DNA of 64,000 bases. It comes from Paenibacillus sp. JNUCC32. GTDB lineage: Bacteria; Bacillota; Bacilli; Paenibacillales; Paenibacillaceae. Below the pieces are notes generated by a model. That model saw only the letters and a program-made list of their open reading frames with translations, searched no databases and was not told the DNA's origin. Shown here in pieces: positions 42,704 through 46,333 of the stretch (position 1 is its first letter; the number at the start of each line of letters is the position of its first letter). Made by a program: the position numbers and the translations under genes. The stretch lies in assembly GCF_014863545.1 (NCBI RefSeq), contig NZ_CP062260.1, positions 5,853,501 through 5,917,500 on the forward strand, written 5' to 3'.

Positions 42704-42833
42704 TAGCCGTGTGGTATGTTGTTCTTAAATTCATCTGTGCAGCTCTGTTCGAATGTGAATAGAGAACAAGATGATTTGATGAGTATCATCACACAGATGT
42801 TAGGTGAATGTCAAGAGGGATCGGGGGGTCAGG

Positions 42834-43805
42834 ATGAGCGATAAGGACAGAGCGATTCTTGGGGACGGATTATCCATACTGTCGCAGTGCAGAATGCTAA
42901 CAGGGGATATTTGGCAGGCTCATTACGGAGCGGCCGCGATCGCGGGTTATTTTTTTGTAAAGGCAAACCATTTGCCCGGGAAGGTCGAGGAGGCCGTTAC
43001 GGCGGAGAACCAAAGGATGATCGCCAAGTATTTGCAGTCGGGAACGGTGACAGGGGAAAGCTTGAGTGTGAAAAGTGCCGAATCAAGGATTCTTGCAGCC
43101 CTTGACGTTACGATTGATGGGCTGCACTGGGTCGGGCACAATGTGATCTATGCCGCAATAAGCCTGGCTGCACTCCACGAGCTTGGAGGCGGTCTACGGC
43201 ATGAAGCAGCCGATATCGCGGAATTAATAGCCTCTTTCACGAAGACGATTCCGGGAAGGTCCTGGATCGGATATTCTGCTGCCGAGGTCAAACGGTTGAC
43301 CCTGGATGAACTTGACGGGATATCGGAAATAACGGACGGCGATCAGCTGTCGGCCTTCATTTTAAACGAGCTGGCCTCTTATTCGGTGATCTACCGCGCA
43401 GAAGCCCATCATGACTTGATGGGGCATATGCTGACGTACTCGCATGCCTTAAACATTTTGTACGATCTTGGCCATCATGATTATTTCCACAGAGGCTTGC
43501 CGGGTCTGCTCAAAATCGTGAAGGTGCTCCGTGCCAGCAGCCAGCTGGATCCTGCAGAGCCGATCCGAATCGTGTCTCCGGTGGATCGGCTGCCACTCGT
43601 GGAGGCTCCAAGATCGGCTTGGCTGCCGCACCAGCCGGAGTACTGGGCGGGTATCGACGGGGCTGTCATCGATTGGGACTTCGGCCATCTGTTTAAATTC
43701 CCGTTCAGTTTCTACCATCATTGGAACCGTGTTTCGGAGACTCCGGCGAAGGCCATGGAGAATTTTCGATATATTATCCATCCGGTGCAGACGATCATTT
43801 CCTGA
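42834..43805 (+). CDS. Histidine-rich, mostly helical protein of unknown function
   Basis: A 323-residue soluble-looking protein I do not recognise. It lacks a signal peptide or membrane helices. Two clusters look like a possible metal site: H98 and H102 (GLHWVGHNVIYAA) and H192, H193, H198 (AEAHHDLMGHMLTYSHAL), followed by LGHHDYFHRG. The C-terminal third has a proline/aromatic region ending FYHHWNRVSETPAKAMENFRYI. GGGGGG precedes ATG 42834; GTG 42804 is less likely. It is 69 bases upstream of the sigma-DUF1835 fusion, same strand, so possibly co-transcribed. Confidence 0.75.
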   Translation: MSDKDRAILGDGLSILSQCRMLTGDIWQAHYGAAAIAGYFFVKANHLPGKVEEAVTAENQRMIAKYLQSGTVTGESLSVKSAESRILAALDVTIDGLHWVGHNVIYAAISLAALHELGGGLRHEAADIAELIASFTKTIPGRSWIGYSAAEVKRLTLDELDGISEITDGDQLSAFILNELASYSVIYRAEAHHDLMGHMLTYSHALNILYDLGHHDYFHRGLPGLLKIVKVLRASSQLDPAEPIRIVSPVDRLPLVEAPRSAWLPHQPEYWAGIDGAVIDWDFGHLFKFPFSFYHHWNRVSETPAKAMENFRYIIHPVQTIIS

Positions 43806-43874
43806 AGAGAGGTAACCTTTATCATTTAGATCGGCACTTAAGGGATAGAGACACCGAGAAGAGGTGAAGTGAGC

Positions 43875-45449
43875 GTGATCCAGTGGATTGAGGAAGCCCG
43901 GAGGGGCAGTGCGGATGCTCAGGAAAGCTTGGTCCGGCATTTTTCCGGCATGGCGCTGGCCGTGGCCTACGATAAGCTGCAGGATTCCCATTTGGCGGAG
44001 GACGCCGTGCAGGAGGCTTTTACGGAGGCCTTTGCGAATCTGCATAAGCTGCAGGATCCCAGGCGTTTCCCCGGATGGTTCAAGGTGATCGTGGAGCGGC
44101 AGTGTTACAGAGACTTGCGCCGCAAGCAATTGCAGACGTTTCCGCTGCATGAGATAGAATTGCCGATGGGAGATCAGCGAAGCTTGGAGTCGGTCGTGGA
44201 AAAGAGAGAGCTGATCGGTCAGCTGCATGCCACGATCGCGGACTTGCCACCCGGCATGAGGATTGCGGTCCAGCTCTATTATTTTCAAGGCTACAGCCTG
44301 CGTGAGATTTCGCAATATTTGGACATTTCCTTGCCGGCTTTGAAAAAACGGCTTTTTGATGCCCGGCGGAAGCTGAAGAACACGCTGCACGTAGCCGACT
44401 TTGTATCGGTGTTCACCGATCTGTATGAGGGAGGAAAGCGCATGCTGCATATCGTTAACGGGGATTCGGTAGGGGATAAGCTGAAGCAAGGGAACATTCA
44501 AGGAGATATCCTGGTGTGGAGGGAGCTATATTCGTTTGGTCCGGTCTTCACGAAGATGGACGAGCCGGATCATCGGAGAACAAGAGCTCAGTATTTGGAG
44601 CAAACGCTGGGGATTCCGCAGAAGGAATATATCGGGACCTGCCAGTCGCAGGAGAGGAAGCTCCAGGATTTTCGAAAATATGACGAAGTTGTGCTCTGGT
44701 TTGAGCATGACCTGTTTGACCAGACCATACTGGCCTACTTGCTGCATTGGTTTAAGGAACAGTCACTGGGGAATACGAGGCTGAGTCTGCTATGCATTGG
44801 CGCATACCCGGGCATCGAGCTTTTTCGCGGGCTGGGGCAGCTTAGCGCAGAGCAGCTCGAGACTTTGTCGGGCACATGGCATGCGATTGGAGACGAAGAG
44901 CTTATGCTGGGCAGCATGTTGTGGGAAGCCTATACCTCGGATCTGCCGGAGAAACATCAGCGCATGCTGGAGGTGGATTCCTCGGCGCTGCCTTTTGCGA
45001 AGGATGCATTCGAGGCCCATCTGGCACGGCTGCCCTCTGTGAGCCATGGACTTGGGATCATCGAGCAGACGACGTTAGAGGCTGTAGCGGGCGGAATCCA
45101 TACGCCGTACGAGTTATTTCGCAATGTAGGTGACCGGCTTCATACACTCGGAATGGGAGACCTGGAATTCTGGTATTACCTGGCGAAGATGACGGAGGGA
45201 TCGGATTCCTTGCTGGTTATCGATGGCACAGCTTCGTTTCCTGACTTCAAACTGGCTGTACCCCATTTTCAAGAGCGGGTGCTGCAAGTGACGAGTTTGG
45301 GGCATGAGGTGCTGGCCGGTAAGACCGACTATGCCTGCGCCGCAACGATCGATAAATGGGTAGGAGGCTTGCAGGTAAGGGGGAAGGATCCGTCATGGCG
45401 CTGGAACCCGGAGCGGAAGTCGGTTGTGCGGATAGCTGAAGCCGATTAA
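43875..45449 (+). CDS. ECF sigma factor fused to DUF1835-DUF3658
   Basis: A 524-residue fusion. Residues ~5-165 form an ECF sigma factor: region 2 HFSGMALAVAYDKLQDSHLAEDAVQEAFTEAF and region 4 LPPGMRIAVQLYYFQGYSLREISQYLDISLPALKKRLFDARRKL. Residues 190-524 equal a complete DUF1835/DUF3658 protein (MLHIVNGDSVGDKL, GDILVWRELYSFGPVF ... LEAVAGGIHTPYELFRNVGDRLHTLGMGDLEFWYYL). GTG 43875 has GAGGTGA seven bases upstream. An internal in-frame ATG at 44442 has its own strong GGGAGG, so a separate DUF1835 protein may also be made. No anti-sigma gene is adjacent. Confidence 0.88.
   Translation: MIQWIEEARRGSADAQESLVRHFSGMALAVAYDKLQDSHLAEDAVQEAFTEAFANLHKLQDPRRFPGWFKVIVERQCYRDLRRKQLQTFPLHEIELPMGDQRSLESVVEKRELIGQLHATIADLPPGMRIAVQLYYFQGYSLREISQYLDISLPALKKRLFDARRKLKNTLHVADFVSVFTDLYEGGKRMLHIVNGDSVGDKLKQGNIQGDILVWRELYSFGPVFTKMDEPDHRRTRAQYLEQTLGIPQKEYIGTCQSQERKLQDFRKYDEVVLWFEHDLFDQTILAYLLHWFKEQSLGNTRLSLLCIGAYPGIELFRGLGQLSAEQLETLSGTWHAIGDEELMLGSMLWEAYTSDLPEKHQRMLEVDSSALPFAKDAFEAHLARLPSVSHGLGIIEQTTLEAVAGGIHTPYELFRNVGDRLHTLGMGDLEFWYYLAKMTEGSDSLLVIDGTASFPDFKLAVPHFQERVLQVTSLGHEVLAGKTDYACAATIDKWVGGLQVRGKDPSWRWNPERKSVVRIAEAD
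44429..44444 (+). promoter_or_regulatory. Internal ribosome binding site and start inside the sigma-DUF1835 gene
   Basis: GGGAGG (44429-44434), a 7-base spacer and ATG (44442-44444) in the frame of the long gene, exactly where the DUF1835 domain begins. This is as good as any translation start in the window. Confidence 0.7.
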
Positions 45450-45514
45450 CCGAAGACATAGGAAAAGAGCGATATTGAGCAGAGTGACGAATCCGATTAA
45501 CAGTAGAATACAGC

Positions 45515-45563
45515 AAAAGAGCTATCCTTTCTGGCGTTAATGCCAAGCAAGGATAGCTCTTTT
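45515..45563. terminator. Bidirectional terminator, sigma-DUF1835 gene / SDR gene
   Basis: Perfect 15-bp arms aaaagagctatcctt and aaggatagctctttt around a 19-base loop, A-rich on the left and T-rich on the right. Confidence 0.88.
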
Positions 45564-45568
45564 CATAG

Positions 45569-46333
45569 TTACAGATGAGAGCCGCCGGTTGCATCGACCA
45601 TCTGTCCCGTGACCCAGCGCCCGTCACTTGATGACAGAAACGCTACGACGTCCGCAATATCCGACGGCTGACCGATTCGGCCAAGCGCTGACATCTCTGC
45701 GGCATGCTGCTGCCCTTCCGGAGTATGAAGCCATGCAGCATTCACGTCCGTATCCACGATGCCCGGAAGAACCGCATTCACCGTGATCCCGCGTGGACCC
45801 AGCAGCTTGGCGAGGTGCAAGGTGAACGTATTGATGGCTCCCTTGGTGATGTTGTAAGCCATAATATGCGGATAGGCGATACGCGTCACACCGGAGGAGA
45901 TGTTGACGATGCGCCCGCCGTCACGCAGGAGCGGCAGAGCCTGTTGGACCAGAAAGAACGGTGCTTTTACATTAACGGCAAGCAGCTCGTCGAAGCTCTC
46001 CTCGGTCGTCTCTTCAAAGGTCTTTGAGGTTCCGATGCCTGCGTTATTCACCAGAATATCAAAATGCTGGTCCCCCGTTACATGCAGCAGCTCCTCCTTC
46101 AGCGAATGGATAAGCCCCTTGGCTCCATCTACCGATTCCAGCCCAGCACCTAAGGCGATGGCTCGCCCGCCTTGAACCTGTATGGTCTGCACAACCTCAT
46201 CCGCAGCATCCCGGCGGTTTCCGTAATGAACAACGACCAGTGCCCCTTCTTCCGCCAACCGAAGCGCGATTCCTTTACCGATTCCTCGGCTTCCGCCTGT
46301 AACCAATGCAACTTTGTTTTCCAATCGTTTCAT
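45569..46333 (-). CDS. SDR family NAD(P)-dependent oxidoreductase
   Basis: A 254-residue short-chain dehydrogenase, probably a ketoreductase. Cofactor motif TGGSRGIG, NNAG in ILVNNAGIG, catalytic S in IVNISSG and YxxxK as YNITK are all present. It ends with SDGRWVTGQMVDATGGSHL, typical of classical FabG-like SDRs. GAGGAG precedes the ATG. Transcription probably starts from the MerR-type promoter at 46366-46397, controlled by the MerR encoded just upstream on the same strand. Confidence 0.93.
   Translation of the reverse strand: MKRLENKVALVTGGSRGIGKGIALRLAEEGALVVVHYGNRRDAADEVVQTIQVQGGRAIALGAGLESVDGAKGLIHSLKEELLHVTGDQHFDILVNNAGIGTSKTFEETTEESFDELLAVNVKAPFFLVQQALPLLRDGGRIVNISSGVTRIAYPHIMAYNITKGAINTFTLHLAKLLGPRGITVNAVLPGIVDTDVNAAWLHTPEGQQHAAEMSALGRIGQPSDIADVVAFLSSSDGRWVTGQMVDATGGSHL

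Follow-up and report, generated by a model that had tools for sequence, protein, structure and literature searches.

A gene of a soil bacterium appears to make both a sigma factor fusion and its bare second half from a conserved inner start

The window, that is the whole stretch of 64 kb analysed here, comes from a host genome of 7.0 Mb. It carries a gene in which a single uninterrupted frame of 524 codons joins an ECF sigma factor to a DUF1835 module (Table 1). The GTG taken as the start of the long product is in frame and recurs among relatives, as judged by eye from a listing of upstream sequences. The gene is preceded by a 333-aa ORF (42804-43805, + strand), which has no Pfam or NCBIfam match at an E value of 0.001 and is not a conserved neighbour, and is followed by a convergent gene resembling an SDR by eye. 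The inverted repeat found past the stop codon is probably a terminator shared with the SDR-like gene; a consensus terminator scan, which considers loops of 3-8, did not list it. No conserved neighbour was found across 80 named loci and the window. Operon or conserved partner genes were also sought and rejected, the widest cluster of neighbours being present in only 12 of the 81 loci, at mixed positions and orientations. The earlier note had remarked that no anti-sigma factor is adjacent, and none was recognised beside the gene, the upstream ORF being unmatched, the downstream one SDR-like, and neither neighbour conserved.

Table 1. Features of the fusion gene and its flanks (positions in the window)
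Feature	Position	Strand	Basis
Predicted promoter for the own sigma factor: GTAACCTT (43812-43819), 13-nt spacer, GGCACTT (43833-43839)	43812..43839	+	conservation
GAGGTG, ribosome site of the long product, 8 nt 5' of GTG 43875	43861..43866	+	sequence
Long product, 524 aa: ECF sigma factor, linker and DUF1835 module	43875..45449	+	ORF, Pfam, relatives
Sigma70_r2, sigma region 2	43929..44129	+	Pfam
Sigma70_r4_2, sigma region 4	44220..44375	+	Pfam
Low-confidence linker joining both halves, probably flexible, with the internal ribosome site at its end	44385..44432	+	pLDDT
Internal ribosome site GGGAGG, 7 nt 5' of ATG 44442	44429..44434	+	sequence, conservation
Short product, 335 aa: DUF1835 module alone, its first half predicted as TOPRIM-like and its second as winged-helix-like	44442..45449	+	start-codon conservation, model
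Inverted repeat with two 18-nt arms (94% complementary) separated by 13 nt	45515..45563		repeat search

In the protein, Pfam matches cover residues 21-87 (sigma region 2), 118-169 (region 4) and 193-298 (DUF1835), all counted from a GTG at 43869. Scores are well above the respective cut-offs for Sigma70_r2 (42.5 bits vs 24), Sigma70_r4_2 (44.9 vs 25.7), the NCBIfam family TIGR02937 (79.7 vs 42.9) and DUF1835 (PF08874, 45.4 vs 21.1). The ORF and both databases bear out the initial reading that a complete ECF sigma factor is joined in one frame to a DUF1835 protein. The sigma part can be aligned over its length with the sequences of the solved SigE and SigW, and residues D37, A41, E42, Q46, E47, W68, K157, K158 and R159 are invariant in a 56-row alignment (A2, comprising the window protein and 55 of the 58 named fusions). 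By alignment and family score, the core-binding and DNA-recognition regions of the sigma half are undegraded, and the concern that key core-binding residues might be lacking is answered. The label DUF3658, which the earlier note had attached to the C-terminal part, has to be dropped. Pfam found no DUF3658 (PF12395) there even with E values as high as 10 allowed, and none, with E values up to 1 allowed, in alignment A3, whose 71 members comprise the window protein and 70 of the 80 named loci; DUF1835 was matched at the latter threshold in 71 of 71. Both other DUF1835 proteins of the host genome match DUF3658. One of them, of 602 aa, combines an HD domain with DUF1835-DUF3658 (L002:748-2556, - strand) and is, by its domain matches, a second kind of DUF1835 fusion within the host genome.

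The same domain order was found well beyond the window. Among the matches listed for 100 genomes of the genus, 66 genomes have the full-length fusion (in one of them, G083, a stop interrupts the sigma part), 13 the DUF1835 gene only, 3 a broken DUF1835 gene and 1 a remnant, and 17 gave no match. The genus fusions are 51-91% identical. The fusion is also found in other genera and, with L292 (from genome G695), in a different family of the order, and a one-frame fusion is present in 58 of the best 80 named records out of 303 relatives. Among named relatives, the nearest one found was Paenibacillus lautus NBRC 15380, 90% identical over the DUF1835 part, in a search whose comparison list may omit records of the same genome. 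Farther away, matches were obtained in 44 of 398 sampled genomes of the class, and the distant relatives examined are all standalone genes (10/10). No plasmid record had a single place covering 80% of the window protein. With the architecture shared by 66 of 100 genus genomes, a local frameshift joining two genes, raised early on as a possible refutation, does not account for it. These comparisons confirm the fusion, and make a stronger case for it than could be known from the sequence of one stretch.

At the junction, the sequence GGGAGG-N7-ATG is exactly as first read, down to the coordinates. Its conservation was followed in 117 distinct fusion genes, which are the matches most similar to the window protein and not a random draw. 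Codon 192 is ATG in 89, GTG in 19 and TTG in 9, hence a bacterial start codon in 117/117 in spite of the amino acid changes. The first glycine of the junction, Gly188, is encoded by GGA (91) or GGG (24) in the 115 genes having glycine there, and never by GGC or GGT, although these account for 45% of the glycine codons in the remainder of these genes. Multiplying the probabilities of a purine at Gly188 over 41 representatives under 75% identity, among which those with a shifted junction were also counted, gives 5.5e-12, a figure that is not a strict p-value because the lineages are related. Measured as codon identity given the same amino acid, synonymous constraint peaks at the junction when windows of seven residues are compared along the gene; the best single column is Thr286. 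A Shine-Dalgarno-like string is found at the junction in 115 of the 117 genes, and at 113 of 3872 other in-frame start codons. A chance origin of the internal ribosome site is ruled out by these counts, together with the codon use at the start and at Gly188. L092 and L186 are among the exceptions, and have weaker or shifted ribosome sites. The distant fusions L292 and L303 also feature an ATG behind GGAGG. In 32 genes lacking an intact sigma half the corresponding codon is ATG (30), GTG (1) or CTG (1), and in the CTG gene (L106) an ATG sits one codon earlier; in the outgroup it is ATG, GTG or TTG in 10/10. No signal of structured RNA was detected at the junction (z 0.23). A consensus scan of 43700-45700, whose scope is promoters of the housekeeping type, found none, and so gave no indication that the short form has an internal promoter of its own. 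That the second start is real and conserved at the codon level is well supported by these patterns of codon use.

Upstream of the long start lies a two-box motif, GTAACCTT-N13-GGCACTT, found with up to 2 mismatches in all the 117 fusion genes of the main set, and in none of 117 shuffled upstream sequences. At the same tolerance it is missing from 29 of the 32 genes whose sigma half is absent or not intact. The three that keep it are L088 and L187, in which the sigma part is full-length but interrupted, and L105 (genome G054), in which the sigma half is gone and the motif sits immediately 5' of the internal ribosome site, its end 22 nt away from the DUF1835 start. None of the ten standalone DUF1835 genes of other Bacilli is preceded by the motif. 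The distant fusion L303 has it at the right place with 3 mismatches, and the fusion of the other family, L292, lacks it (7 mismatches, as in the background), so that the promoter is not universal to the fusion.

In the host genome the only perfect match to the motif is the one listed in Table 1. Both sites with 1 mismatch fall inside open frames, and were discarded as further targets. An exact-pattern search, by which weaker promoters would be missed, found 56 sites in 55 of the 100 genus genomes, against 3 for a reversed-pattern control. Fifty of the 56, positions being compared by eye, are directly upstream of the fusion; one is at the remnant of G023, one at the sigma-less gene of G054, and four are elsewhere (three of these were inspected, all but the second site of G050). 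In the family, 140 exact sites were found in 128 of 394 genomes; the 84 outside the genus were counted by eye, and 20 of them were fetched and inspected. Since the exact motif is nearly confined to the fusion gene in the genus, the sigma factor probably serves its own gene, and the distribution of the motif is the one expected of a factor mainly transcribing it. Apparent remnants of fusion genes, carrying internal deletions and an exact promoter motif, were observed at L304 (G023) and, by eye, at L344 and L345 in the genus g9.

A second site is known from the genus g5. In 13 genomes (L336-L343, L346-L350) a gene for an oligopeptide-binding lipoprotein, which we take to be OppA-like, is followed 21-30 nt after its stop codon by an additional exact motif directed into the gene, antisense; the boxes are conserved, and the spacers differ. 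A search of 30 genomes gave 22 other g5 genomes with a close orthologue (>90% identity) of the lipoprotein gene; the site is present with 1-2 mismatches in 3 of these, and absent in 19. Seven of 19 genomes from other groups gave nine more distant OppA-like relatives, none with the site, and the host genome gave no match to the gene. The sigma factor is therefore not self-only everywhere, and the orientation of the site hints that in g5 it may lower peptide uptake.

The history of the gene was approached by a quick tree built from 85 DUF1835 parts, with its root placed on other Bacilli. It took in L292, L303 and 41 representatives chosen from the 117 fusions, treated L088, L159 and L187, whose sigma part is interrupted or partly deleted, as devoid of sigma, and omitted the broken genes L113-L115, left out also of the motif and column counts. 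The fused and standalone states need 21 changes on this tree, a count that does not separate gain from loss, and at least 12 of them are forced by well-supported branches. Of the 32 genes in which the sigma half is missing or damaged, 16 were searched for sigma remnants, each against a fused relative picked by eye. Two have a full-length interrupted sigma, three clear remnants, four weak ones (E 0.008-0.036) and seven none. The clear remnants, all upstream of the DUF1835 gene, consist of 65 sigma-tail residues in L159, of 38 residues in another frame in L118, and of a tail in L199. Read from the tree and these remains, the sigma half is lost repeatedly while the DUF1835 gene persists from the inner start. 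The module looks like the persistent partner, because sigma remnants are seen and no sigma-only orthologue is found among the matches listed in the 100 genus genomes. The fusion itself probably arose once, within the order.

Structure prediction gave a confident model of the short product (pLDDT 90). In the model of the 524-aa protein, pLDDT falls under 50 at residues 171-186, and elsewhere only in the stretch 85-110, within the sigma half. The full model has a pTM of 0.63 and low confidence between the halves, so that control in cis is not supported by structure. Among the families present in the fold lists used, the module matched TOPRIM plus winged-helix folds, arranged as in the core of type IIA topoisomerases. 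The module is accordingly predicted to adopt a TOPRIM/winged-helix fold like that core, without its catalytic Glu and Tyr. Residue 6, which we take from the motif rather than from a printed structural alignment to be the position of the catalytic TOPRIM Glu, is Asn in 82 of 83 rows, and DxD is not invariant. Tyrosine is present in at least 80% of the 83 rows at columns 30, 80, 99 and 164, and at none in the winged-helix-like stretch (~186-251). GyrB/GyrA and ParE/ParC share the TOPRIM-winged-helix core, and differ from the module in both these residues. In the sequence comparisons made, no significant match of the module to type IIA topoisomerases emerged: searches with it found no topoisomerase, and hhalign gave 3.1 against a GyrB profile built on a narrow set (9 rows, Neff 1.35), compared with 11.5 for a sigma-profile control.

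Several ECF groups carry C-terminal extensions. In ECF41 (Ecf41Bli, SigJ) the extension is SnoaL-like and no anti-sigma gene is adjacent, according to PMC3426412 and PMC8999054; the factor controls a neighbouring enzyme gene, and the promoter motif is mentioned at ECF41 genes too (PMC3426412). The gene described here has in common with ECF41 a fused C-terminal extension, the lack of an anti-sigma neighbour, a conserved promoter motif and a very small set of targets. It differs in its extension, a DUF1835 protein of 335 aa that has a conserved start of its own, and in that the only target seen in the genus is the sigma-DUF1835 gene itself. No SnoaL-like domain was found, Pfam recognising DUF1835 alone in the C-terminal part. 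By analogy, ECF41 is the closest working parallel, with no evidence of membership in that group. ECF42, ECF238 and other groups likewise have a fused C-terminal regulatory part, made of TPR repeats or Cys-rich domains, and the text of PMC8999054 consulted here does not name DUF1835 as an extension. The standalone DUF1835 proteins of other Bacilli are homologous to the module (311, 320 and 321 aa in three scanned with Pfam). They begin where the short product begins, with ATG, GTG or TTG in 10/10, and lack the sigma half and, in 10/10, the motif. The literature searched, in which the 2021 ECF re-classification did not appear, contained no link between DUF1835 and a sigma factor, and such an ECF group may be already described. 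DUF1835 is named there in a single paper, for a Burkholderia gene, and no paper was found for DUF3658, for PF08874, or for TOPRIM together with an unknown domain.

Comparison of relatives supports the fusion, the second start, the association of promoter and sigma, the nearly private character of the promoter and the repeated loss of sigma. The account that we regard as on balance probable is that of a one-gene autoregulatory unit, having its own promoter and two products, in which the module is the older output and the sigma factor an added inducer. RNA polymerase, directed by the sigma half of the long product, would read the two-box motif in front of the fusion gene, and each mRNA would be translated from GTG 43875 into the sigma-DUF1835 fusion and from ATG 44442 into the module by itself. 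The interpretation in the earlier note is borne out in part; where it took the short form as a possible competitor or titrating partner and the C-terminal domain as a possible regulator of sigma, the evidence leans towards another view. Since the DUF1835 product is persistent, standing alone in ten other Bacilli and surviving sigma loss, the sigma half looks like an added self-inducer, by which the gene would induce itself. We infer that the module tethered in the long form most likely acts as a sensor of a ligand or nucleic acid that adjusts sigma activity, and that the free short form would be the effector, perhaps damping the loop through competition for a shared ligand or partner. A more specific picture, possible rather than probable, is a self-addressed circuit in which sigma acts on its own promoter, a re-purposed topoisomerase-like core senses the state of DNA or a ligand, and the free core serves as both output and brake.

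Alternatively, the C-terminal module could be a sigma regulator in the manner of ECF41, the short form a by-product or titrating partner, and the real targets too divergent to be seen. Of the alternatives this is the one that fares best, and we deem it somewhat unlikely. It fits the ECF41 case, where, according to PMC3426412, the extension has positive and negative effects and a conserved promoter motif goes with one detectable target. It also fits the second target in g5, the lack of the own-promoter motif in L292, and a mean identity over the 41 representatives that is nearly the same for the sigma half (55.4%) and the module (55.6%). Yet the module stands alone in other Bacilli and outlives sigma loss, the matches listed for the genus include no sigma-only orthologue, and the host genome has, at up to 2 mismatches, 31 sites vs 62 for the reversed-pattern control, hence no further enrichment.

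GGCACTT is not a textbook ECF -10, and the unusual box, as well as a fusion (L292) doing without the motif, would agree with the upstream motif being the site of another regulator. This is clearly improbable: the AAC in the first box resembles ECF -35 elements, one fixed spacing separates the boxes in the 111 genes matching both cores (the remaining 6 are near variants), and the motif is gone from 29 of the 32 genes whose sigma half is not intact, and is kept where sigma is merely interrupted (L088, L187). It is very unlikely that no short protein is made, with Met192 and Gly-Gly retained for protein reasons and the ribosome site left over from a standalone ancestor of the gene. Standalone relatives have their start there too, and the site may thus have been inherited, but Val and Leu at codon 192 are encoded by GTG (19/19) and TTG (9/9) alone, the third base at Gly188 is a purine in 115/115 within the most constrained window, and sigma-less relatives have the junction region as their only start. 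An annotation or sequencing artefact wrongly joining two genes can hardly be entertained, and is refuted by the recurrence of the architecture in the 66 genus genomes and the 58 named records.

Fused C-terminal domains are known in ECF sigma factors, and many groups are uncharacterised. New here are the upstream motif tied to the fusion and the TOPRIM/winged-helix prediction for the DUF1835 part. The autoregulatory gene offers a candidate promoter, a nearly single target, a C-terminal product made separately, and relatives that differ by the loss of the sigma half only. Whether the fused domain regulates sigma, or sigma induces the domain, becomes directly testable in such a system, and DUF1835 gains a predicted fold and a testable link to the binding of DNA or nucleotides. 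If the patterns of start codon and promoter are read as we propose, this gene of a soil bacterium appears to make both a sigma fusion and its bare second half from a conserved inner start.
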